From a virus: a DNA stretch of 53,876 nucleotides. The notes under the pieces are model-generated. The model was not told the DNA's origin. It saw nothing but the letters and a program-made list of their open reading frames with translations, and ran no database searches. The position numbers and the translations under genes are program-made. The stretch spans positions 1 to 53,876 of IMG/VR virus record IMGVR_UViG_3300044640_001642. One strand, given 5' to 3'. This document shows positions 4,625 to 53,818 of the stretch, in pieces; the first letter of the stretch is position 1, and each line of letters starts with the position of its first letter.

Positions 4625-5467
4625 TTAATTTTCTGTTTCTAATCTTTTAATAACATCCTTAATATTGATGTATGATGTGATAATTACCGGTAATCCAAGA
4701 AGAGCGTTACAAAAATCAAACATATATCTATACGTTGAAAATACACTTCCCACACTCACTTTATTATACATTACGTAGTATGTTAATAATACTGTTACAC
4801 TTCCGTAAACAATTGCTTGAATCCAAATTGAGAACTTGGAATCCACCACCGATAGTTTAATTGATAATTTTTGACCTCGTTTGAGTAAGTTATTTACGGC
4901 AGATATTTTTCTAGTATTAATAATCTCAGTTTGTTCTTCAGATAAGTCATTATTTAAACTAGTTACCTCAGCAATTTTTGGTGAGTAATAAAAACTAACA
5001 CCCAATATTAAAACCGCACTAATCATTAAGAATCCAACAATCGGTAAACTTACCATTGCTAAAAAGTAAATTGCTCCCACCAAACCAATTATGGTTTGTA
5101 ATACAACCAACATATCTCTCTCAAAGAAATGAACAATATAATTCATTAATGTTAATCGTCCGTTAATCTTTGTTGTCTCAACACCACTCTCAATTTGTTT
5201 GTGAGTTTCAATTGATGCAAATCTTCGATAAATCCCGGAGAATACTCTAACATCATAAATTCTACTGATGTATCCGAAGAACATAATGGCAACAAAGGTT
5301 GAAACCAAATACCAAATGTATGAATAATCTTTGGCAATCAAATGGTCAATTGAATTACCCAAAATTTTGGGGTAAATTACCATCAATATTGCATTCACCA
5401 TAAACAATGAATATGAAAATACTATTGATTTCCAATTCTCCTTAAACATCACTTTTAACTTATTCAT
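4625..5467 (-). CDS. ABC-exporter membrane domain without ATPase
   Basis: This 280-residue protein has the layout of an ABC exporter transmembrane domain: an N-terminal membrane pair (SIVFSYSLFMVNAILMVIYP..), the segment SRIYDVRVFSGIYRRFA, a central membrane pair around residues 125-165 and a final pair around 215-260. A full exporter of this class would continue with a nucleotide-binding domain of about 230 residues; here the frame stops after the membrane domain and no ATPase follows. It may pair with a host ATPase or interfere with a host transporter; both ideas are inference. It has its own host-like promoter. Confidence 0.75.
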   Translation of the reverse strand: MNKLKVMFKENWKSIVFSYSLFMVNAILMVIYPKILGNSIDHLIAKDYSYIWYLVSTFVAIMFFGYISRIYDVRVFSGIYRRFASIETHKQIESGVETTKINGRLTLMNYIVHFFERDMLVVLQTIIGLVGAIYFLAMVSLPIVGFLMISAVLILGVSFYYSPKIAEVTSLNNDLSEEQTEIINTRKISAVNNLLKRGQKLSIKLSVVDSKFSIWIQAIVYGSVTVLLTYYVMYNKVSVGSVFSTYRYMFDFCNALLGLPVIITSYINIKDVIKRLETEN

Positions 5468-27355: not shown

Positions 27356-29224
27356 TTAATCAGGTTTAACCTCTTCAAACTCTACGTCCGAAGCGTTAAT
27401 ATCTGATTCCGGTGTCTCACTCTCATTTACACTATTGTATAATTCCTGAGTAATGGTTTGGAACTTTTGAGTAAGTTCTTCCATAATCGTTTTAACATTT
27501 TCCACATCTTTATTAGAATGCGATTCTTTCAAGGTATCAAGAAGAGTTGTTATTTCTGTTTTTTGTTCTTCAGAAATCTTATCCTCTAAATCCGTTAAAG
27601 ATTTACCTGTTTGGAATATCAGGTTGTCTGCAGAGTTTAACGTATCCACATCCTCTTTAACCTTTTTGTCTGCTTCAGCGTTTTCTTCAGCTTCAGTTTT
27701 CATTCTTTCAATGTCTTCTTGAGATAATCCCGTTGAACCCTCAATTCTAATTGATTGTGTTTTGTTTGTTGCTTCATCAACCGCAGAAACATTGATGATA
27801 CCATTTGCATCAATATCAAAAGTTACTTGTATTTTCGGAGTTCCTCTCATAGACGGTGGTAATCCATCTAAATGGAATCTACCCATCGTTCTGTTGTCTT
27901 TAGCCATCGGTCTCTCCCCTTGTAAAACGTGAATCTCTACAGAAGGTTGATTATCAATGGCCGTTGAGAAAACTTGTGACTTTTTGGTTGGGATTGTAGT
28001 ATTTGCCTCAATAAGTCGTGTTAAAATACCACCCATTGTTTCAATACCTAATGAAAGTGGTGTTACGTCTAATAACAATACATCTTTCACATCACCAGCC
28101 AATACACCTCCTTGAATAGCTGCTCCTAACGCAACTACTTCATCCGGATTAACACCTTTTGATGGTTCTTTACCAAAGAACTTCTTAACCGCCTCTTGTA
28201 TTGCCGGGATTCTTGTTGTTCCACCAACAAGGATAACCTCATCAATGTCGGAAACCTTAAGTTTCGCATTTTTCAATGCCGTTTTACAAGGGTCAATTGT
28301 TCTTTTAATTAAATCAGAAGCAAGTTGTTCAAACTTAGCTCTCGATAAAGTTTTAACCAAGTGTTTTGGTCCGGTAGCGTCGGCACTTAAATAAGGTAAG
28401 TTGATTTCTGTCTGAGGAGATGAAGATAATTCAACCTTCGCTTTCTCAGCACCTTCTCTTAACCTTTGTAATGCCATAGCGTCTTTTGAGATGTCTATAC
28501 CGACATTATCATTCTTAAATTCTTCAATCAAGTAATCAATAATGACTCTGTCAAAGTCGTCCCCTCCTAAGTGAGTGTCTCCATCGGTAGATAATACCTC
28601 AAATACTCCACCACCTAAGTCAAGAATAGACACGTCGTGAGTTCCACCTCCGCAGTCAAACACAACAATTTTACTATCCCCCTTTTTATCAAGTCCATAC
28701 GCAAGAGCAGCCGCGGTTGGTTCCGAAATTATCCTTAACACATTTAATCCGGCGATTTGTCCCGCTTCAATAGTTGCCTGACGTTGGGCATCGTTAAAAT
28801 AAGCTGGTACGGTGATAACCGCATCTGTAATTGTTTCACCAACATAATCTTCCGCAGTTTGTTTCATCTTTTGTAAGATAATTGCGGATAATTCTTGTGG
28901 TGAGTATTGTCTATCATCAATTTGAACTCTTGGTTGAGACCCTTCATTAATTACTGAGTAAGGAACATTTTTAAGTTCTTTTTTACTCTCATCATAGGTA
29001 AGTCCCATAAATCGTTTAATTGAGTGGATAGTTTTTGTTGGATTGGTAACCGCTTGTCTTTTTGCTGGGTCACCAACTTTTCTTTCACCGCCTTCTAAAA
29101 AAGCAATGATTGATGGTGTTGTTCTTTTACCTTCAGAATTGGCAATAATTATTGGGTCTCCACCCTCCATAATTGAACAACAAGAATTTGTGGTTCCTAA
29201 ATCCACGCCTAAAATTTTTCCCAT
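27356..29224 (-). CDS. dnaK: DnaK (Hsp70) chaperone
   Basis: A complete 622-residue Hsp70. Phosphate-1 motif [17 protein letters not shown] at the N-terminus, [13 protein letters not shown] and [18 protein letters not shown] follow in the ATPase domain, then the linker [16 protein letters not shown] and the substrate-binding domain. The C-terminal lid is present and ends acidic (FEEVKPD). It refolds proteins with host DnaJ and GrpE; neither cofactor is encoded in this window. Full-length phage DnaK is uncommon and may help assembly of large virions. It stands alone with its own promoter and terminator. Confidence 0.97.
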
Positions 29225-29353: not shown

Positions 29354-29950
29354 CTATAAGATTTTATCTCGTTTCATTATATTATCAATTGCCCAAAGAG
29401 GTTGTAGATTAGTGTAATGACATAATTTTTTTAATTTATGTAAATCATTACCTGCCGATGATAAAGGTACTATATGGTCAATATGCCATTTTCCGTAATT
29501 ATCCAAACTCATTCCGTCCGTAAATTGTTTAGTTAAATGAATTATAAAAAAATCAATAGAACACCCTAATAATTCTATTGTTTTTCCTGGTTTTTTAACT
29601 CCTTTAATTTTGAATGAGCGAGATAATAATGATGAATAATTTGATTTTATTTTGAATACAGGGTCATTTTGTTTTCTTTTACTTTCATAAACCCTTCTTT
29701 TTTTCTTTATTTTTTCCGGATTATTTTCTGCCCATCTTTTACTTTTATCCTTTACTTTGTCCGGATTATTTTCAGACCATCTTTTACTTCTTTCTTTGTG
29801 TTTTTGAGGGTTATTTAAGTTGTAAATTTTTCCTCTTTCAGAATTACATTTTTTACAAATACTCGTCTTACCATCTTTAGTTCTTTTAGAATTTATAAAC
29901 ACACAAAAATCCTTTTCAACCTTACATTTACTACAAATCTTTGTTTCCAT
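29354..29950 (-). CDS. HNH endonuclease with zinc finger, 198 aa
   Basis: N-terminal CxxC finger (CSKCKVEKDFCVF..CKKCNSE), tandem basic repeats (ERSKRWSENNPDKVKDKSKRWAENNPEK is one pair) and a C-terminal HNH of the type WHIDHIVPLSSA..LCHYTNLQPLWA. The repeats probably contact DNA. It is co-transcribed with, and overlaps by 20 nt, a small RHH-type gene. Confidence 0.85.
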   Translation of the reverse strand: METKICSKCKVEKDFCVFINSKRTKDGKTSICKKCNSERGKIYNLNNPQKHKERSKRWSENNPDKVKDKSKRWAENNPEKIKKKRRVYESKRKQNDPVFKIKSNYSSLLSRSFKIKGVKKPGKTIELLGCSIDFFIIHLTKQFTDGMSLDNYGKWHIDHIVPLSSAGNDLHKLKKLCHYTNLQPLWAIDNIMKRDKIL

Positions 29951-30179: not shown

Positions 30180-30539
30180 ATGAAATTATTTTTAGACGAT
30201 AACCGAAAACCTTACGATGTATTTAGAAACACTATTGACCCAATTTATGAAAATAATAATGAATGGGTAATAGTTAAGGACTATTTAGAATTTATTGATA
30301 CTATTTTAAAACACGGATTACCTGAAGTAATATCGTTTGACCATGATTTATCTCAAAATCATTATTTACCGGAGAACCAAACAAATATTAATTATGATAC
30401 CATAAAAGATAGAACCGGATATGATGCGGGATTATGGTTAATAGGGTATTGTAGAATGAATTCTCTTGAGTTACCTAAAATTAAAGTTCATTCTGCTAAT
30501 ATTGAAGGTAAAAAAAATATTGAGAGATTATTTTTCTGA
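30180..30539 (+). CDS. cREC-type receiver-like protein, 119 aa
   Basis: MKLFLDDNRKPYDVF, then VISFDHDLSQNH and DRTGYDAGLWLIGYC, match the cyclic-phosphate-processing receiver-like family that occurs in phage RNA-processing contexts. The acidic LDD and FDHDL residues are intact. The ATG at 30180 is chosen from the promoter position; the upstream in-frame ATG lies inside the promoter. Confidence 0.8.
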   Translation: MKLFLDDNRKPYDVFRNTIDPIYENNNEWVIVKDYLEFIDTILKHGLPEVISFDHDLSQNHYLPENQTNINYDTIKDRTGYDAGLWLIGYCRMNSLELPKIKVHSANIEGKKNIERLFF

Positions 30540-31109
30540 AACAAATGCTCTTAACTTCACTTTGTTCCAATTTTTAAAATCCTCACCATTATCACCAAGT
30601 TTTAATATGGACATTGTTCTATGCCATCCTTCAACTATTTCATACTTACCTTGATTATCTTTAAGTACAATTATCGGTTCGTTTTTACCTGTTGAGATGG
30701 CTAGTTCTTTTTGTGTTTCCATTCTTTCTTTATCGTCCTTAACAAAATAAGCATCCACTTCACCAAATTCTCTTTCAATGAATGCGTTTATATTATTTTC
30801 AACAAAATCTTCAGGATTAACATTAATTATCCGTAATTTCCAAGGACCTTTTAGATACTCATAAATCTTTTTACCTAAAAAAGGTATTGGGTCTCCATGA
30901 TATTGTCCCATCACAGTTTTATAACTCTCTTCATTACCACATATAACATTTGTAACAAATTCCTTTAAGATATATTCCGGAGTATTTGGAAATTCTTTTT
31001 TAAATCTATTATAAAATGATTTACAAACTGATGATGTTGGGTTAGATAAAGGAATTGATTGGATATCCTCTAATAATCTATATTGTTTTTCTGTTATTAT
31101 TAATTTCAT
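30528..31109 (-). CDS. leader-bearing ParB/Srx-like protein, 193 aa
   Basis: The leader MKLIITEKQYRLLEDIQ contains LLE (residue 14) as a possible cut site. The C-terminal third (NEPIIVLKDNQGKYEIVEGWHRTMSILKLG) matches the ParB/sulfiredoxin nuclease fold with its G-W-H-R core. A packaged DNA- or nucleotide-acting enzyme is inferred. It follows the 31111 metalloprotease gene by 1 nt. Confidence 0.8.
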   Translation of the reverse strand: MKLIITEKQYRLLEDIQSIPLSNPTSSVCKSFYNRFKKEFPNTPEYILKEFVTNVICGNEESYKTVMGQYHGDPIPFLGKKIYEYLKGPWKLRIINVNPEDFVENNINAFIEREFGEVDAYFVKDDKERMETQKELAISTGKNEPIIVLKDNQGKYEIVEGWHRTMSILKLGDNGEDFKNWNKVKLRAFVSEK

Positions 31110-31110
31110 A

Positions 31111-31569
31111 TTACATTCTTTCTTTTATATCGTCCAACATACTCTCATCAAACTCAACTCCGTGTCTTTCTTGGAAATGGTCTAATAATGTACGAACAGA
31201 TTCGTAATATCCTTTATGTTGTAATAATAGGTAAGCACCTAAATCAGCTTCCAACTCATCTTTCGCATCTCTTGGACCATCGTGAGATAATAATACGTGA
31301 GTAACCTCGTGAGCTTCAATAAATTTTAATATACTTTTAGCGTCTGGTTGTCCTTCCAATATTTGCCCATCAATAATAATTAAATCACTACCGGGAACCA
31401 TAAACCCAAAACCATATTCCTCAAAGTATTCTTTAACTTGTTCATATAATGGGTCATCTTCAAATACAACAACAACCGTAACACCATCTAAGAATTCACT
31501 ATTATATTCTATTTGGGTATCCTCTTTTATTATTTTTTTATACTGAGATTCTGTAATAATTAATTTCAT
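31111..31569 (-). CDS. leader-bearing HExxH metalloprotease, 152 aa
   Basis: The ATG at 31569 gives MKLIITESQYKKIIKEDTQ, with IKE (residues 14-16) followed by D. The catalytic part has AHEVTHVLLSH (H87, E88, H91) and KDELEADLGAYLLL, typical of small ImmA/M78-like zinc proteases. It is coupled to the ParB-like gene. If packaged, it could cleave a host repressor or defence protein on entry; that is inference. Confidence 0.83.
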   Translation of the reverse strand: MKLIITESQYKKIIKEDTQIEYNSEFLDGVTVVVVFEDDPLYEQVKEYFEEYGFGFMVPGSDLIIIDGQILEGQPDAKSILKFIEAHEVTHVLLSHDGPRDAKDELEADLGAYLLLQHKGYYESVRTLLDHFQERHGVEFDESMLDDIKERM

Positions 31570-31572
31570 ATT

Positions 31573-31580
31573 GATAAATA
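31573..31580 (-). promoter_or_regulatory. candidate late promoter TATTTATC
   Basis: Lies 3 nt upstream of the ATG at 31569. Confidence 0.45.
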
Positions 31581-31618
31581 CTTTAAATTTTCGTATCATT
31601 AGGCAAATATATAAAATT

Positions 31619-32317
31619 ATGATAAAAAACACAACACCTTACATCGGAAAACTTAGATTAAAGTTTGAAAAATATCCAGAATACACCGGAAAAGATAAAT
31701 TAAACAAAATTCACTTAAATTTGGGTTTTACAAAACTTGTTTCAAGAATTACACCAGTTAGAACATCTGCCGGATGGGTTGTTAATCCCGAATGCGTTTA
31801 TAAAATTCAAAAATATACTGGTGGAATCATTAAAAATCATACATTTGGGGATGAAAATGAACATGAATTACCTAATTCATTTTTATCAAAGACGGGTGAA
31901 TATATTGGAGATATTGAGATAGGTTGGTGGTATTATCAAAACAATATGGTGGTGAATGATGAATACCCCCACGGAGTTGCAACAATTATTGAATACAATG
32001 ATATGTATCCCGACCAACAATTTATTGCCGGATATCACGGATACACCCACAGAGGGGGACAAACATTTAAAATTGGTGATAGATTATTTGACCCATCTTA
32101 TAAACCAAAAGAAGAGGACTACGAAGAGTGGGAATGGGTTGGCTGGAAACAAAAATACGACAAATTATTTGATGAAAGTGATGACTTAGATAAAAAATGG
32201 ATGGTAAAATCCGGAATATCTTATGTAATGCCTTATACTAAACGAGGTCATAAAGTAATTGAGAATAATCCTGAAGCTTTACAAGCAGCAATCAATATGT
32301 CGAAGGACTTATCTTAA
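31619..32317 (+). CDS. hypothetical protein, 232 aa
   Basis: MIKNTTPYIGKLRLKFEKYP begins a soluble alpha/beta protein with a Gly/His-rich central part (IAGYHGYTHRGGQTFKIGD). The start is moved to 31619 because the longer frame overlaps the divergent promoter. No family is recognised. Confidence 0.75.
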   Translation: MIKNTTPYIGKLRLKFEKYPEYTGKDKLNKIHLNLGFTKLVSRITPVRTSAGWVVNPECVYKIQKYTGGIIKNHTFGDENEHELPNSFLSKTGEYIGDIEIGWWYYQNNMVVNDEYPHGVATIIEYNDMYPDQQFIAGYHGYTHRGGQTFKIGDRLFDPSYKPKEEDYEEWEWVGWKQKYDKLFDESDDLDKKWMVKSGISYVMPYTKRGHKVIENNPEALQAAINMSKDLS

Positions 32318-35685: not shown

Positions 35686-35994
35686 ATGAAAATAATTATT
35701 ACTGAAGACCAATATGAAAAAATTGGTAGATACGAAACCTGTCCAACTCAAGTAACATTTCACGTTTATAAACGAATTGTTGGCCAATGGAAACAAAGAA
35801 CAAGATGTGTTAGTGATGAATTTTATGATTTAATACAAAAATACCAAAGACATAAATTTGATGATGGGTATGAAATGGATGAAAAATTAAAAGAATTAAT
35901 TCAAGAATACTATTATAAAACGTATTATTTAACACCGGACGAATATACAATAGAATACGTCACTGGTAACACAATATCAATTAAAACAAAATAA
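35686..35994 (+). CDS. ITEDQY-leader protein, 102 aa
   Basis: MKIIITEDQYEKIGRY has the leader core but no [I/L]-x-E site right after it. The remainder is basic and aromatic. It is coupled to the 35448 gene. Confidence 0.77.
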   Translation: MKIIITEDQYEKIGRYETCPTQVTFHVYKRIVGQWKQRTRCVSDEFYDLIQKYQRHKFDDGYEMDEKLKELIQEYYYKTYYLTPDEYTIEYVTGNTISIKTK

Positions 35995-38854: not shown

Positions 38855-39283
38855 ATGAAAAAAGTAGAAACAACAAGTAAAGTAAAAGTACATTACACAG
38901 GTAGATTAGAAGACGGAACAATTTTTGATACATCAATCGCTGAAGGTAGAGAACCATTAGAAGTTGAACTAGGTTTAGGACAACTTATTAAAGGATTTGA
39001 ATCAGGATTAATTGATATGTCTGAAGGTGATAAAAAAACTGTTGAGATTTCTGTGGAAGACGCTTACGGTGAGCCAAAACCTGAATTTATCAATGAAGTT
39101 CCAAAAACTAATGTTCCTGAAGGAATTCAAGTTGGTGAATCTTTACAAGGTATGGGACCTCAAGGGCCCGTTAATGTTCAAGTCGTTGCCGTGAATGATG
39201 AAACTGTCACATTAGACGCAAATCATCCGTTAGCCGGTAAAAATCTTATATTTGATTTAGAAGTTATTGAAATTTCTGAATAA
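38855..39283 (+). CDS. FKBP-type peptidyl-prolyl isomerase (SlyD-like)
   Basis: The 142-residue protein starts VKVHYTGRLEDGTIFDTS, continues LIKGFESGLIDMSEGDKKTV, and has an inserted insert-in-flap segment (VPEGIQVGESLQGMGPQGP) before NHPLAGKNLIFDLEVIE. That is the SlyD-type FKBP layout, combining proline isomerisation and chaperone activity. It lacks the His-rich metal tail of SlyD. Together with DnaK and ClpP it suggests a phage protein-folding set. Confidence 0.93.
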   Translation: MKKVETTSKVKVHYTGRLEDGTIFDTSIAEGREPLEVELGLGQLIKGFESGLIDMSEGDKKTVEISVEDAYGEPKPEFINEVPKTNVPEGIQVGESLQGMGPQGPVNVQVVAVNDETVTLDANHPLAGKNLIFDLEVIEISE

Positions 39284-39752: not shown

Positions 39753-40355
39753 ATGTCTAAGAAAATTTTAATAACAGAAGAAGATAAAAACCACATTAAA
39801 TTATTATATAATATTAATGAACAGGGGGCCGATGATATTTTTAAAGGATTAACCGATAAAATATCCAATATGTTAAAAACAGGCAAGTTTAATGATGATG
39901 ACGATAACACTTCAAATAACATAACAACAACTGATGACGATTTTTATAAATCAGTTTTAAAATGTTTAGGTGCTGAACCAACTAAAAATAATATGTTATT
40001 TATGTACGCTTGGAGACAAGCTGAAGGTGGTAAAGCAAAAAACAACCCATTCAATACTACTATGAAAATGCCTGGAGCAACAAATATTAGTAATACTTCC
40101 GTAGGTGTTAAAAATTATTCAACTCCGGAAGAAGGTATTGAAGCAACCTGTAAAACTCTTAAAAATGGTAGAGATAAATACGGATATTATAATATTATCG
40201 ATGGACTAAAAAATGATGTAGGTTTATCTCAATTATCCGATGCAGTTATAAATTCAAAATGGGGTACTAAAGATTTATTACGTAAAGTAACTCAAGGATA
40301 TGTTTCCGGTCATTCCCCAAAACCACACCCAATCAATAAATCAGAAATCGCTTAA
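39753..40355 (+). CDS. leader-bearing lysozyme/transglycosylase-like protein, 200 aa
   Basis: MSKKILITEEDKNHIKLLYN-INEQ gives INE (residues 21-23) followed by Q. The C-terminal half (FMYAWRQAEGG..NNPFNTTMKMPGA..GVKNYSTPEEGIEATCKTLK) matches a lysozyme-like fold found in phage and bacterial muralytic proteins, with Glu of QAEGG the likely acid. A packaged wall-degrading enzyme used at entry is inferred. Confidence 0.82.
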   Translation: MSKKILITEEDKNHIKLLYNINEQGADDIFKGLTDKISNMLKTGKFNDDDDNTSNNITTTDDDFYKSVLKCLGAEPTKNNMLFMYAWRQAEGGKAKNNPFNTTMKMPGATNISNTSVGVKNYSTPEEGIEATCKTLKNGRDKYGYYNIIDGLKNDVGLSQLSDAVINSKWGTKDLLRKVTQGYVSGHSPKPHPINKSEIA

Positions 40356-42411: not shown

Positions 42412-43560
42412 CTAGTTAGATAATGGCATTTTTATGGTTGGATGTGATTGATAATTTTCAACAATAAAATCAGTTATTAGACAACTATTCAAAAATTCAG
42501 CAACACTTTCATTAAAATTAATTTGGTTAGACATAACTAATTTAGGTAATTCAAATGGTTTCCTTGTTAATTGTTCTTTAACACCATCTACTTGGTTTTT
42601 ATAGATATGAGCATCACCTAAATTAGTAATTAATTCGTCAGGTATCATATTAACCATTTTCCCAATAATTTCTAATAATAAACCATAAGATGATATATTA
42701 AATGGAAGCCCTAATGGAACATCATTTGACCTCATATTAAACATTAAAGAGATTGCTCGTTTTGGGATGTCATTATCGTTTAGTAAATCCATAATATCGT
42801 GTTCTTCCATATTATGCCACGACATATCTTGACTGAAATTGTTTTTATTCCAAATATCTTTTCTATCATCTAAACTCAACTCTCTTGTATAAACTTGAAA
42901 TCCATAATGACAAGGTGGAAGAACCATTTGGTCTAATTCTCCAACATTCCAAGCATTAACCATCAATCGTCTTGAGTCTGGATTTGTTTTAAGGTCGTTG
43001 ATTAGGTTTGTGATTTGGTCTATACCTTTTTTACTAAGGTGTTCAATTTCTTCTTTAGAACCAAATTGTAATTTGTTATAGTCTTCTCTCCATTTATCAC
43101 TATCATAACCCCACTTTCTCCATTGCTTACCGTACACAGGACCTAACTCACCCCACTTCTTAGCAAACTCATCATCTGTTTTGATTTTGTTGGTGAATTC
43201 TTCTTGTGTTAATATTCTAGGTGGCATCGCATCTATTACGGGGTCATTTGATAATCTATCAAAGGATTCTAAAATACTTTGTTTATAAGATTTGTAGCAA
43301 TCACCATCCCAAATATGACAATTATTATCAACCAAAAACTTAATGTTGGTATCTCCTCGTAAGAACCAAAGAAGTTCTGTTACGATTGTTTTGAATGGCA
43401 TTTTCTTTGTAGTCAAAAGAGGAAAACCATCTTTCATATCGTGACGTATTTGTCTTCCGAATACTGAGATTGTCCCTGTACCTGTTCTGTCTTGTTTTGT
43501 TACTCCGTTGTCAAGAATGTCTTGGAGAAGGTCTGTGTATTGTTTATCTAGTTTATTCAT
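42412..43560 (-). CDS. thyA: thymidylate synthase ThyA
   Basis: Converts dUMP to dTMP using methylene-tetrahydrofolate. The active-site Cys is C217 in LPPCHYGFQVY; RTGTGT (25-30), GPVYGKQWR (139-147), DSRRLMVNAWN, GLPFNISSYG and GDAHIYKNQVD are present. At 382 residues it is longer than typical (about 264-316) because of two insertions: about residues 88-136 before GPVYG, as in some bacterial forms, and about 226-270 after the active site. The second insertion resembles part of the 47273 protein. Its ATG overlaps the upstream small gene. Confidence 0.97.
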   Translation of the reverse strand: MNKLDKQYTDLLQDILDNGVTKQDRTGTGTISVFGRQIRHDMKDGFPLLTTKKMPFKTIVTELLWFLRGDTNIKFLVDNNCHIWDGDCYKSYKQSILESFDRLSNDPVIDAMPPRILTQEEFTNKIKTDDEFAKKWGELGPVYGKQWRKWGYDSDKWREDYNKLQFGSKEEIEHLSKKGIDQITNLINDLKTNPDSRRLMVNAWNVGELDQMVLPPCHYGFQVYTRELSLDDRKDIWNKNNFSQDMSWHNMEEHDIMDLLNDNDIPKRAISLMFNMRSNDVPLGLPFNISSYGLLLEIIGKMVNMIPDELITNLGDAHIYKNQVDGVKEQLTRKPFELPKLVMSNQINFNESVAEFLNSCLITDFIVENYQSHPTIKMPLSN

Positions 43561-44969: not shown

Positions 44970-45287
44970 TTATTTATATTTGGTTGTTGTAACTGTTTTA
45001 GGAAATACTTCTTCTAAGAACTTATCTTCAAAGACATAACCATTATGTGAACCTGCATCCCAAACATTAAATTTGAAATGTTTTCCATCAGATTTTCTTT
45101 GTACAATATAATCCCAAGAATCACCATCTGACTTATCAGATGTGTTTATTTTATCTACGTGAGTATATTTCTCACCGTTTAATTCGTGACTATCACCTTT
45201 ATAATTAACATTATCCCATAAATCCATAAGGGTATCGTGGTCCAAATCAATCTTTTCTCTAACTTTTTTTTCTTTTTTAGTTGCCAT
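44970..45287 (-). CDS. hypothetical protein, 105 aa
   Basis: Lys-rich start (MATKKEKKVREKIDLDHDTL) and beta-rich remainder. It overlaps the upstream gene by 11 nt. No family is recognised. Confidence 0.75.
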   Translation of the reverse strand: MATKKEKKVREKIDLDHDTLMDLWDNVNYKGDSHELNGEKYTHVDKINTSDKSDGDSWDYIVQRKSDGKHFKFNVWDAGSHNGYVFEDKFLEEVFPKTVTTTKYK

Positions 45288-45678
45288 TTGCGTGTTTTAT
45301 TATTAATCTGTTTATTCTCCCTATTTTATTGATACTATCCGCCCATTCTGTGTGAGATTTTGGCTCACCAAACATCTCCAAATATATCTTTTCCGATAAA
45401 GATAGTAATTTTGAATAATATTTCCAACTATTAAGGTCAGGTTTTTCCAAAATAGTTTCAATTGGTTCATTTATGAATGTTGTTATTTTCTTAAACGAAG
45501 GAAATCTTCCGTGAGGAACTTCCCATTCTCGTCCGGTTTCAACATCCTTTAATAAATGTCTATCCCCACCTAAATTTTTTAAGTATCTAATTTTTGTGGG
45601 AGACCATTTACCAATAAACTCATCACCTTCAGATAATTCATTTAGTTTAATCGTTCTGTCTTCGTATTTATTTTCCAT
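45277..45678 (-). CDS. hypothetical protein, 133 aa
   Basis: The ATG at 45678 (MENKYEDRTIKLNELSEGDE) overlaps the upstream stop as ATGGAAAATAA; the longer frame would run antisense-free through the repeat gene's end and is rejected. The N-terminal half suggests a small beta barrel. No family is recognised. Confidence 0.73.
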   Translation of the reverse strand: MENKYEDRTIKLNELSEGDEFIGKWSPTKIRYLKNLGGDRHLLKDVETGREWEVPHGRFPSFKKITTFINEPIETILEKPDLNSWKYYSKLLSLSEKIYLEMFGEPKSHTEWADSINKIGRINRLIIKHANGN

Positions 45679-46273
45679 TTGTTTTTTGTTCATATAATTC
45701 TTCAACATCCTTTTCAGAGTAAAATTGTAATTGGTTGTTGGTTGTTTGAATTTCTTTGTATTGTTTCTCCACCGGTAGAGTTGCGTTACCAAAATCAGAT
45801 AGTGTTGTTGTTACCCTCATTTTGTAGTGTTCCTCCACCTGACTTAGGTGGTGTTGATGGATTAATCCAGTTGTTGTTACCCCCATTTTGTAGTGTTCCT
45901 CCACCTTACTGTAATTCAATCTATCCAAACCAAAAGTTGTTGTCACCCCCATTTTGTAGTGTTCCTCCACCATTCTTCTTCCAATTCTCTCATGTAATTT
46001 AGTTGTTGTTACCCCCACTTTGTAGTATTCCTCCACCCATATCTTTGTAATGTCCTTAATTTGTTGGTTAGACATACTAAAATAGGATTCAAAAAATTTC
46101 CAAATTTCTCTATAACTCACATAAACATACCCATTTTTTTTATTGTATTGTAAAATACATTTCCCATCTTTCATATGAAAAATATAATCAGGGTATTCTT
46201 CCATAATGAATGGTTCCATAGGGTTAAAATTTTCATTCAACCACTTAATACAAAGATTCTCTAATTTAGTCAT
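45668..46273 (-). CDS. protein with 22-residue tandem repeats, 201 aa
   Basis: A unique N-terminal 79 residues (MTKLENLCIKWLNENFNPME...) are followed by units of exactly 22 residues beginning at positions 80, 102, 124, 146 and 168, plus a partial unit. Each starts VEEHYKMGVTTT (or a variant) and continues with 10 unrelated residues. At the DNA level the 36-bp conserved part differs by at most two bases among four copies, while the 30-bp parts share nothing. The repeat uses codons rare in neighbouring genes (GGG, GTG, GAG, CAC). It may be a true repeat protein or a coincidental frame through a CRISPR-like array. Confidence 0.7.
   Translation of the reverse strand: MTKLENLCIKWLNENFNPMEPFIMEEYPDYIFHMKDGKCILQYNKKNGYVYVSYREIWKFFESYFSMSNQQIKDITKIWVEEYYKVGVTTTKLHERIGRRMVEEHYKMGVTTTFGLDRLNYSKVEEHYKMGVTTTGLIHQHHLSQVEEHYKMRVTTTLSDFGNATLPVEKQYKEIQTTNNQLQFYSEKDVEELYEQKTNGK
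45804..46037. repeat. 36-bp repeats with 30-bp spacers (CRISPR-like geometry)
   Basis: Four copies at 45804-45839, 45870-45905, 45936-45971 and 46002-46037, each beginning GTTGTTGTTACCC and ending GTTCCTCCACC on the plus strand, separated by three unrelated spacers of exactly 30 bp. A degenerate fifth copy lies near 45738-45773 at the same 66-bp period. The repeat/spacer sizes match many Bacteroidota CRISPR arrays, but no cas gene is present and the whole array is in frame in a 201-residue gene. Confidence 0.6.
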
Positions 46274-46511: not shown

Positions 46512-46695
46512 TTGATTCTTCATAAATTTTATAATCAAAATACCAGGGACTTTGTTCCCCCTCATTTTCGTTTTTAACAATTTCTTCGGCAGCAGCCTTA
46601 GCCTCCTCGTAACTATAATACGACTCCAAAAAACTACGAGAATCCGTATCTAAAAAAGGTTCCCGGTGACTATTTCTCCAAACTATAATATACAT
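46504..46695 (-). CDS. hypothetical protein, 63 aa
   Basis: MYIIVWRNSHREPFLDTDSR then YSYEEAKAAAEEIVKNENEG resembles small phage proteins with one beta-alpha unit. It abuts the upstream gene. No family is recognised. Confidence 0.72.
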   Translation of the reverse strand: MYIIVWRNSHREPFLDTDSRSFLESYYSYEEAKAAAEEIVKNENEGEQSPWYFDYKIYEESNG

Positions 46696-47282
46696 TATTC
46701 TAAAATATTTTCTCTGTTACCACCCCACACTTTGTTAAACTCCTTGTCGTCTCTTAACTTATCAATAAATTCTTGTTTAGTTAAACACACATCAGTATAT
46801 GGACCTGAAAATGGGGGATTCTCCTTCATCCAATTAAGTTCGTATCTCTTATACAAATTACTAAACAAATCAATTTCCGGTAGTAATAACTTAAATTTAC
46901 TTTTGAAATCATCACTCTTGATTTTATATTGTTCTCTCACCCACTCCTGTCTTCCATCATCAATCAAAGTTCTATTAACAATCTTATCAATCTTCTTGTC
47001 AATTTCCTCCAATAGTTTATCCGGCCCCTTATGACGGGACATATAGAATATATCGTTCATTTGATAATCCTCAAATTTGACACATAACTTAGCAGAACGA
47101 GTGTATTTTTCAACAATCTCAATTTCCACAGACATATAAACGTGAGGTCCGATTTTACTCATTCTCTTATATCCATACTCTCCGTTCTCCATTGGAGGTG
47201 GGGGATTTAATAATACTCTTCTCGTTTTTGGTAGTTCATTACAGATGAATGCTACATACCTTTCCATCACACTTAATTCCAT
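46695..47282 (-). CDS. hypothetical protein with TQEEF-WG motif, 195 aa
   Basis: The ATG at 47282 (MELSVMERYVAFICNEL) overlaps the upstream stop. Near its C-terminus, LTKQEFIDKLRDDKEFNKVW (residues about 167-186) matches a segment of the ThyA insertion and of the 47273 protein. No other domain is recognised. Confidence 0.75.
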   Translation of the reverse strand: MELSVMERYVAFICNELPKTRRVLLNPPPPMENGEYGYKRMSKIGPHVYMSVEIEIVEKYTRSAKLCVKFEDYQMNDIFYMSRHKGPDKLLEEIDKKIDKIVNRTLIDDGRQEWVREQYKIKSDDFKSKFKLLLPEIDLFSNLYKRYELNWMKENPPFSGPYTDVCLTKQEFIDKLRDDKEFNKVWGGNRENILE

Positions 47283-47935
47283 TTTAATTTTCTTTTTGGT
47301 GTTGGTGTCCAATATGAGTTATCAAAGTCAATAATAGTAATCATTTTTTCGTCGTCATATTCAAATCCGGTTTCATAGTTTTTACTGAACCATATTTTAT
47401 ATCTTTCCTCGTAAGTCAATTCCTTACAACAATTCTCACCCCACTTTTGGTAGAAGTCATCATCAAATAATAACTTATTAATGAACTCTTCTTGTGTTAA
47501 GGGTCTAAATCCGTATTGAAAAGATGGGTTTGTGAAATGTTCATAATACCCATCAAACTCAACTAAACATCCATCTAAATAACCTTTTATCCTATCAAAT
47601 CCGTTTTTAACACCCTCAATAACATAAACCAAATAATTCTTATACAATCTATCGTTTGTATTCATCGGAATGATATCAGGATTAGGTTCACCACCACGTA
47701 ATTGGTTTACAATCTCTTGGTCAATTTCTTTTTGAACTTCTTTGAATATCTCGGAAGTTAATTCATCGTGTTCTTTTTGTTTTTGAATTTCCCTTTCAAA
47801 AGTTTCCGGAGTTAATTGATGTAAAGAATCAATTTTAAAATGTTGGGTTGGGATTGTGAATACTTGATATCCACCAACCGGGTCACCATTAATGGTTATC
47901 CCATTTTTTATATATTCGTAAATTGCGTTATCCAT
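47273..47935 (-). CDS. hypothetical protein sharing ThyA-insert motifs, 220 aa
   Basis: Contains PLTQEEFINKLLFDDDFYQK (residues about 145-164) and LTYEERYKIWFSKN (about 173-186). Counterparts in ThyA are LTQEEFTNKIKTDDEFAKKW and LSLDDRKDIWNKNN. The N-terminal part is not recognised. The shared modules suggest a small mobile domain common to several genes of this phage. Confidence 0.77.
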   Translation of the reverse strand: MDNAIYEYIKNGITINGDPVGGYQVFTIPTQHFKIDSLHQLTPETFEREIQKQKEHDELTSEIFKEVQKEIDQEIVNQLRGGEPNPDIIPMNTNDRLYKNYLVYVIEGVKNGFDRIKGYLDGCLVEFDGYYEHFTNPSFQYGFRPLTQEEFINKLLFDDDFYQKWGENCCKELTYEERYKIWFSKNYETGFEYDDEKMITIIDFDNSYWTPTPKRKLKWN

Positions 47936-49719: not shown

Positions 49720-50457
49720 ATGAATTACGGAAACGATTTTAAAAAGTTCGCAATGAGCGACAGAGGTATTTCAGGACTTAATTTAGATTACTACCAAAAA
49801 CATATGGAAAATTCATTAACCCCGTATATTTTGGAAGAACGAGAAATGAGAGCAACTCAGATGGATATTTTTTCAAGATTAATTCTTGATAGAATTGTTT
49901 GGGCATCAGGACCTGTAGATGATAGAATGGGTGATATTATCCAAGCACAATTAATTTTTTTAGACACCACAGATAAAAAAGATATTAGTCTTTACTTAAA
50001 TAGTCCTGGTGGGTCAGTGATGATGGGACTTGGTATAAGAGATGTTATGAATTATGTTAAAGCAGATGTTTCAACAACTAATCTTGGAATGTGTGCATCT
50101 ATGGGTTCAATATTATTGTCTTCGGGAGCTAAAGGTAAAAGAAATTCATTAATTTTTTCTAAAGTTATGACTCATTTTGTAAGTTATGGGACATCGGGGA
50201 ATATCCAAGATACTCGTATAAGTCATATGGAAGCCGAAAAATATAACTATATGTTATTCAAAATATTATCTCAAAATTGTGATAAAACTTTTGATGAGAT
50301 TTATGAAATTTCAAGACGAGATAAATGGTTTAACTCTGAAGAATCAAAAGAAATTGGATTAATTGATAACATTATTGGTTTAGAAAATAGTCCCTCAATC
50401 AGTCAAATGATGGAAGGTTTTGAAGATTACTATTCAAAAGAAATTTACAATAAATAA
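49720..50457 (+). CDS. clpP: ClpP-type serine protease
   Basis: A 245-residue ClpP homologue. The triad is visible: Ser127 in GMCASMGSILL, His152 in KVMTHFVSYG and Asp201 in RRDKWFNSEESKEIGLID; the oxyanion strand LYLNSPGGSV is intact. The N-terminal 35 residues are longer than usual. No ClpX/ClpA ATPase is in the window, so it may use a host unfoldase or act as a capsid-maturation-type peptidase; ClpP-fold proteases serve as prohead proteases in several phage groups. Confidence 0.93.
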   Translation: MNYGNDFKKFAMSDRGISGLNLDYYQKHMENSLTPYILEEREMRATQMDIFSRLILDRIVWASGPVDDRMGDIIQAQLIFLDTTDKKDISLYLNSPGGSVMMGLGIRDVMNYVKADVSTTNLGMCASMGSILLSSGAKGKRNSLIFSKVMTHFVSYGTSGNIQDTRISHMEAEKYNYMLFKILSQNCDKTFDEIYEISRRDKWFNSEESKEIGLIDNIIGLENSPSISQMMEGFEDYYSKEIYNK

Positions 50458-52688: not shown

Positions 52689-52716
52689 AAAACCCCCAAT
52701 TATTGTTGGGGGTTTT
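52689..52716. terminator. intrinsic terminator
   Basis: AAAACCCCCAA/TTGGGGGTTTT hairpin between convergent genes. Confidence 0.83.
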
Positions 52717-53818
52717 CATCTTTTATTAAGGAATATATTTTACTTAGTTTTTTCATCATCTTAAGACAAATGTTTCTTGTTTGATTAATTTCATATCTAA
52801 AGAATTTTTCATAATCAGTACCAAATCTAGTTATTTTATTTAAATATTTATCAAAATACCTTTGTTTTGCACCTCTGAATCCAAACATATTTTCCATAAA
52901 GTCGTTAGTTAAAAAATCTTTCATTAATCCTCCTCTCCACTGTAATAGTGTTTTAAAATATTGTTGTAATGTTAAATCAACCATTTCATCGTCGGTTACA
53001 TTATCCGGATAATCCATATCATTATCATCAAAAGTTTGTTTTATTTGGGGGATAATTAATTTTAATTCTTCCCTCAACCCTTCATAAGTTAATTCGGAAC
53101 CCTCTTTATACGCAACATAGACTCTGTGGTTTGTTATGAACTTATAAAAATCTTTCTTTGTAATCCCACTCTCTTCTAAGGCGGCATATAACTCAGTTGC
53201 TCTTACCAAGTTTTCTGTGGTGTGAGCAAAATACATATAATTTAACAATTTATTTAATGGGGGTATATTTCCGAACCTTCTTTGAGAACCAATATGATAT
53301 TCAACTCTTTCAGGTGTTTTAACTATTGGGTTAACAGATTCATCATATGCGTGTTTTAGTTCGTGAGCCAAACTTGAAACCATAACAACTCTTTCTTTAT
53401 TAAACTCATCAATAACGTCCTGAGTGGTTACACCATAATCAACGGCAAAAGTGATTGATAACACCACATTATTTATGTCTTGAGTTCTTTCATAATTAAA
53501 TTTAGCGTTTATCTCAACCTTCCCGTGGTGGGTCATACCATTTACCAATACTTTAGGTTTTTTAACCCCATCAAAACTATAATCATTAATATCTTCAATG
53601 TTGAAGGATAATTTTATCTTCTTAAATTTATAATCGTTAATTTGGAAATCACCTTTTAATATAATTGTTTTTTTAAATTGAGTTTGTAAATCAGATGTTG
53701 GTTTAAGCTCCATCATCATTTTGTCAAATAATTGTTGTGCAACTGAAACAATGTTAGTTGGAACACCTACGGCTTCATTCAATTTAGTATATTGAGATTC
53801 TTTAATTCTAATTTTCAT
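52700..53818 (-). CDS. leader-bearing HExxH metalloprotease, 372 aa
   Basis: MKIRIKESQYTKLNEAVG carries the ITESQY-type leader with LNE (residues 13-15) followed by A. The zinc site is SSLAHELKHAYDE (H152, E153, H156), and AHTTENLVRATELYAA about 60 residues later could provide the third ligand. The long C-terminal region is helical. Largest of four HExxH proteins in the window. Packaging and injection are inferred. Confidence 0.83.
   Translation of the reverse strand: MKIRIKESQYTKLNEAVGVPTNIVSVAQQLFDKMMMELKPTSDLQTQFKKTIILKGDFQINDYKFKKIKLSFNIEDINDYSFDGVKKPKVLVNGMTHHGKVEINAKFNYERTQDINNVVLSITFAVDYGVTTQDVIDEFNKERVVMVSSLAHELKHAYDESVNPIVKTPERVEYHIGSQRRFGNIPPLNKLLNYMYFAHTTENLVRATELYAALEESGITKKDFYKFITNHRVYVAYKEGSELTYEGLREELKLIIPQIKQTFDDNDMDYPDNVTDDEMVDLTLQQYFKTLLQWRGGLMKDFLTNDFMENMFGFRGAKQRYFDKYLNKITRFGTDYEKFFRYEINQTRNICLKMMKKLSKIYSLIKDENPQQ

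Follow-up and report, generated by a model that had tools for sequence, protein, structure and literature searches.

A CRISPR array is extended by Cas1-Cas2, which duplicates a repeat and inserts a spacer between the copies; off-target CRISPR integration, known from work in E. coli, creates new arrays outside CRISPR loci, and repeats within open reading frames (ORFs) are usually rejected by array finders as false positives. In Bacteroidota, type VI-B systems (effector Cas13b) have arrays of 36-nt repeats with spacers of 29-31 nt (mode 30), and the VI-B array of F. columnare acquires its spacers via the Cas1 of a II-C locus (PMC8092290). Viruses, large phages among them, carry mini-arrays that are short and lack adaptation genes, with repeats like those of host arrays and spacers against related viruses (Medvedeva 2019, PMC6858448; for huge phages, PMC7162821). 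RNA anti-CRISPRs, or solitary repeat units (Racr, PMC10651486), are phage sequences that imitate a CRISPR repeat.

CRISPR-shaped arrays occur in giant freshwater phages, within the 3' ends of otherwise ordinary genes; they seem to be products of the insertion chemistry behind CRISPR memory and yet remain readable as protein. As far as we have found, arrays of this form and in this place have not been described before; a literature search of incomplete coverage returned phage mini-arrays and RNA anti-CRISPRs, and nothing on arrays inside translated phage genes. With the virus-borne mini-arrays they have in common that they are short, come without adaptation genes and occur in large phages, but their repeat is coding sequence, and no target was found for their inserts in the collections searched. 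As in Racr, phage sequence imitates a CRISPR repeat, but the phage gene is translated and holds 2-8 repeats separated by private inserts, and no processing-competent repeat fold is seen. The products of off-target integration also form outside CRISPR loci, at sites that look like a repeat; the phage arrays differ from these in that they recur in many phages at the 3' ends of a single gene family, and in that selection acts on their reading frame. With type VI-B they share repeat length, spacer lengths and their mode, and repeat ends (G.TG.....GGGT....ACAAC) that are alike and equally oriented relative to the supposed leader; they differ in that the phage repeat lies within an ORF and has no hairpin, and neither a Cas13b in the carriers nor an identical host repeat was found.

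The array of the window (the whole stretch of 53,876 nt that was analysed) is contained with every unit in a single ORF of 201 residues on the minus strand (45668-46273, ATG start), the strand of all features of the locus. The N-terminal 79 residues (46037-46273) form the predicted domain part of the ORF, a conserved phage domain with 84-100% amino-acid identity across carriers, and lie where a CRISPR leader would be. There follow repeat 1, proximal to this domain (GGTGGAGGAATACTACAAAGTGGGGGTAACAACAAC, 46002-46037), insert 1 (45972-46001), repeat 2 (45936-45971), insert 2 (45906-45935), repeat 3, the consensus copy (45870-45905), insert 3 (45840-45869), repeat 4 (45804-45839), insert 4 (45774-45803), and a degenerate fifth, terminal repeat (45738-45773), which matches repeat 4 in 25/36 positions and retains the 5' half. 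The four 36-bp repeats and the degenerate fifth (45738-46037 in all) are separated by inserts of 30 nt, with a start-to-start spacing of 66 at every step. A C-terminal tail (45671-45737, ..NNQLQFYSEKDVEELYEQ..), conserved in several carriers, follows, and the start codon of the downstream gene (45277-45678, MENKYEDRTIKLNELSEGD..) overlaps the end of the array ORF. The original prediction had thus placed the repeats, the exact 30-bp spacers, the 66-bp period, the degraded fifth copy and the one open frame of 201 residues correctly; its statement that the four repeats show at most two differences is slightly optimistic, as repeat 1 differs from the other window copies at 2-4 positions. Searches of the array protein, N-terminal domain included, against Pfam and PHROG gave no accepted match; the domain has weak similarity to T5-family hypothetical proteins (E about 1), and an AlphaFold2 model from a six-row alignment is uninformative (mean pLDDT 36).

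Elsewhere in the window, an N-terminal tag (MKIIITESQ or MKILITENK) is found on many otherwise unrelated proteins (30528-31109, 31111-31632, 35686-35994, 39753-40355, 52700-53818 and others) and may be a packaging or processing signal. The motif QEEFxNKIKTDDEFAKKWGE of thymidylate synthase is found again in two neighboring uncharacterized proteins, toward their C-terminal side (42412-43560, 46695-47312, 47273-47935), and a 45-bp tandem repeat (KRWSENNPDKVKDKS) lies in an ORF whose C-terminal part is HNH endonuclease-like (29354-29950). Judged by their translations, the products of 27356-29224, 49720-50457, 38855-39283 and 4625-5467 appear to comprise DnaK and a ClpP-like protease, along with an FKBP-type isomerase and the membrane domain of an ABC transporter.

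The gene is found in 12 IMG/VR contigs (up to 322 kb), and in 12/12 it carries an array, whose repeats number about 3 to 8 with the degenerate last copy included. Among these homologues of the N-terminal 79 residues, the repeat DNA is nearly fixed and the inserts are private to each lineage, as had been predicted; a single distal insert (QEFGWR..), which is an old one, is common to three lineages (L018/L019, L020, L024/L026), and apart from it the 30-bp parts are not conserved as protein. Over 33 unit pairs from five in-register arrays, that of the window included, identity is 97% in the 36 repeat columns and 27.8% in the 30 insert columns, where composition alone gives an expectation of 27.7% (shuffling P 0.28); the inserts are thus unrelated to each other, and the claimed division into a conserved 36-bp part and an unrelated 30-bp part extends beyond the window, whose own units give 94% and 27.8%. 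The identity profile drops abruptly at the boundary between the two. Insert lengths in the phage arrays keep to a ruler of 29-31 nt with a mode of 30 (in-frame exceptions: 27, 33 and 36), and the insert GC content of 34% is not distinct from that of phage DNA after allowing for open-frame filtering. The phage arrays thus show what is expected of a CRISPR array: near-identical direct repeats of fixed length with a sharp edge, and spacers that are unique and vary little in length. In 11/11 arrays the last repeat is degenerate (34.1/36 identical positions in the first repeat pair, 22.5/36 in the last; P 0.001). Two carriers with flanks 99.2-99.8% identical (L024 and L026) are set apart by a single whole unit (69 nt), located at the end next to the domain; the pair was dropped as proof of gain at the leader end, since repeat 1 of L024 is not the same as its repeat 2 and loss is therefore equally possible.

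The unit of repetition is DNA rather than protein, as the edges of the repeat lie within codons. The repeat begins at codon position 3 and finishes at codon position 2; the codon that bridges insert and repeat (two insert bases and the first repeat base) ends in G in 32/32 main-family units that could be assessed, regardless of the residue it encodes (M, K, Q, P, R, W, E, G, T, L, or S), against a third-position G content of 11.5% in these phages (P~8e-31). At the other repeat edge, the fourfold-degenerate third base of an ACN codon varies freely. We see no way in which protein selection, or the duplication of protein units, could produce the invariant bridging G.

The array ORF is nevertheless under selection, since the inserts of the main gene contain no stop in the coding frame (0/278 codons), whereas every one of the other five frames has 16-25, and all main-family inserts preserve the reading frame. 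Their codon usage resembles that of DNA read in an arbitrary frame. A similar overlap at the end of the array ORF is seen in L018, L021, and L022; judged from the gene arrangement, the array ORF and the downstream gene are likely to be translationally coupled, and the window and its relatives suggest this coupling as a simple reason for the array to be kept open.

Array-bearing paralogues, which come from the same phages and from related ones, show a different relationship to the frame. Repeats identical in 36/36 positions with frame-breaking inserts are seen in the L202/L233 paralogues (in L202, three repeats with inserts of 29, 29 and 31 nt) and in that of L095/L212 (inserts of 29 nt), and slightly different repeats with frame-breaking inserts of 29 nt in L214 and L222. 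In some paralogues, perfect repeats lie beyond a frameshift and are hence untranslated. In the more distant family C, on the other hand, ORFs of 313-643 codons, some of which are cut at the ends of the sequence pieces examined, contain as many as about 20 units that have diverged but stay in frame, each made up of VEDTIQNGVKET and roughly ten further residues (L069 3-1931, L041 from 2431, L092 from 1054, L095 from 16045, L100 from 18194, L322 9539-10555). The variable pieces of this family are common to, and reshuffled between, phages, and from their sequences these proteins would be old arrays retained as protein.

These observations bear on the reading of the array as a tandem-repeat protein, in which a 22-residue unit was duplicated, gene conversion kept a 12-residue motif, and 10-residue linkers drifted. 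Such a protein would have a protein unit with edges on codons and would keep its frame, a combination that the array does not have. While the stop-free coding frame, the in-frame inserts of the main family and the shared or shuffled linkers of family C are in its favor, it does not account for repeat edges inside codons, for perfect repeats in untranslated sequence, for inserts at chance identity even where the repeats match in 36/36 positions, or for insert lengths that, beyond the main gene, are not multiples of three; we consider it unlikely overall and strongly disfavored as the origin of the units. Of the two readings originally proposed, a mini-array that doubles as coding sequence is therefore well supported, and a diversifying protein is not needed to explain where the units come from, although selection at the protein level is real, as seen from the stop-free frame and from family C.

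Arrays are not confined to this gene. The 309-kb phage G013 (IMGVR_UViG_3300033995_001164) carries several further ones with different repeats. They include a second coding family (IKEWVESALNCGVTTT) and an array outside coding sequence with 36/29-30 geometry, whose repeat (GTTGGGAATCATCACAATTTGAAAGGTAGTCACAAC) is identical in 31/36 positions to a Chryseobacterium VI-B repeat. This noncoding array lies about 200 nt downstream of a 443-residue TnpB/Cas12f-like ORF (L322 12003-13783; also in G014), and for this reason the reading of it as a VI-B mini-array was set aside; the ORF and the array together are a possible TnpB-to-Cas12 intermediate in a phage.

For comparison with bacterial arrays, 85,000 species genomes were scanned for VI-B-like repeat ends spaced 66 bp apart, which yielded 93 stretches. 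Many of these adjoin an ORF 1030-1250 residues long that has at least two HEPN-like motifs; in the four panel members tested for the neighboring effector, all four are Cas13b. The 315 spacers in 30 bacterial panel arrays measure 30 nt in 255 cases (81%), 29 nt in 42 (13%), and 31 nt in 14 (4%), and the range and mode of the phage inserts match them, bearing out the proposal that the geometry equals that of Bacteroidota CRISPR arrays. In register, phage and panel repeats agree in 14-24/36 positions (19-21/36 for well-known VI-B hosts), the best match of 27/36 being on the other strand. In global alignments to 50 panel repeats the coding repeats score above all or nearly all shuffles, and similarity to the panel is higher for array-bearing paralogues than for 71 paralogues that lack an array (P 3e-7); the panel motif was partly derived from the phage repeat, which inflates the similarity for the main family and less so for family B and par3. 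This sequence similarity is supportive and not proof, and coding families A and B may owe their likeness to protein homology. The repeat resembles those of Bacteroidota type VI-B, at a level short of a family match, but is identical to none of those sampled: in 398 genomes from the order to which Chryseobacterium belongs, the consensus repeat has no match even when 3 mismatches are allowed, and repeats searched in genomes at class level and order level gave no match.

In folding, the coding repeats do not form the VI-B hairpin (paired GUUG/CAAC ends and a central stem); bacterial VI-B repeats reach -7 to -11 kcal/mol with end pairing, the coding repeats about -2 to -5 kcal/mol without it. This disfavors a role as Cas13b guides. 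A Bacteroidaceae MAG (L135, JAFTEV010000081.1) contains an orphan array (GGTGGAAGCGGATGAGAAAAAGAGGGTAGTTACAAC) with inserts of 30, 29 and 30 nt at the end of an ORF (approximately 400-650 of the reverse complement), whose repeat is identical to the phage repeat in 24/36 positions; the neighboring gene reads as class 3 fructose-bisphosphatase. Sphingobacterium genomes (L106, L118, L127, L128, L136, L141, L144, L155, L172) have short arrays of 2-8 copies with a 66-bp period, sometimes at two sites per genome and with no obvious Cas13b in the DNA examined.

We propose, with a probability of about 0.6, that the array is of CRISPR type and grew at the 3' end of a translated phage gene by Cas1-Cas2-like integration. 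The end of the gene (..TGGGTGGAGGAAC...GGGGTAACAACAAC, coding for WVEEHYKxGVTTT), which resembles a Bacteroidota VI-B repeat, would serve as the integration site; each event would duplicate exactly 36 bp and place about 30 bp of presumably foreign DNA between the copies, with growth probably polarized from the side of the domain. As 36 and 30 add up to 66, most events would preserve the reading frame, and the downstream gene that overlaps the array ORF would cause only open, in-frame units to be retained by selection, the frame being broken in other paralogues. The integrase would most likely be host Cas1-Cas2 acting in trans, the most economical assumption given that no cas1 was found in 16 carrier records searched and that F. 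columnare provides a precedent. In favor of the proposal are the repeat boundary out of codon phase, the frame-breaking paralogues, the length ruler, the private and unrelated inserts, the degenerate terminal repeat, the one-unit difference of L024 and L026, the resemblance of array sites to panel repeats, and the open-frame selection. Counting against it are the carriers' lack of cas1 and, in ten records searched, of Cas13b, the failure to find a source for any insert in the collections searched, the absence of the VI-B hairpin, and the lack of a consensus-repeat match in the 398 genomes. The same lack of cas1, the several different array loci in a single phage, and the lack of a host array with the same repeat among those found would also suit a phage-encoded mechanism independent of host CRISPR (template switching, or a diversity-generating or homing element), which we regard as unlikely since the 36/30 geometry and its 29-31 spread equal those of Bacteroidota VI-B-type arrays, the array sites resemble VI-B-type repeats, and the Bacteroidaceae MAG has an orphan array with the same geometry and a related repeat.

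As to what an array built by Cas1-Cas2-like integration might do, our leading guess is that it is a tolerated or mildly useful integration site. It could also be a working phage mini-array, with transcripts that provide guides for a host Cas effector against competing phages, as known for other phage mini-arrays (PMC6858448, PMC11656645, PMC7162821). Forty inserts compared to 3.3 Mb of sequence that included several 300-kb carriers, and with them the inserts' own genomes, gave no source and no self match (0/40), as expected if self-targeting guides are purged; pooled inserts gave no convincing match in INPHARED and PLSDB, and an exact-pattern search of IMG/VR with six inserts, pooled as two-spacer ambiguity patterns, returned arrays only. 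In the window, the exact IMG/VR matches of inserts 2, 3, and 4 are likewise arrays only, and insert 1 has no source found. The matches to phage and plasmid sequences that were looked for in these three collections did thus not emerge, and with no target for any insert, coding repeats that do not form the VI-B hairpin, and no identity to any sampled host repeat, a guide function appears doubtful. Somewhat more doubtful still is an adaptation sink, in which decoy sites in several gene copies would divert host Cas1-Cas2 from its own CRISPR array. That every contig with the gene has an array, that G013 has several array loci with different repeats, and that the repeats look like integration sites yet lack a processing hairpin would all fit such a sink, but it should gather much phage DNA, and no self insert is seen. 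The absence of self inserts suggests either that self-targeting guides have been purged or that DNA other than the phage's own is captured.

More broadly, and only tentatively, the 3' ends of this gene family in giant Bacteroidota phages may be landing sites for host adaptation machinery, at which foreign DNA is written as in-frame units, some of which, as in family C, are now long repeat proteins. If so, CRISPR memory, or a trap for such memory, would be hidden in coding sequence, and the integrase would be a route to newly invented protein sequence. If the arrays are real products of CRISPR adaptation, phages hold unrecognized records of the contents of the cells they infected; they could steal or divert the adaptation step of their hosts without any cas gene of their own, and CRISPR-type integration would be a source of new in-frame protein sequence.
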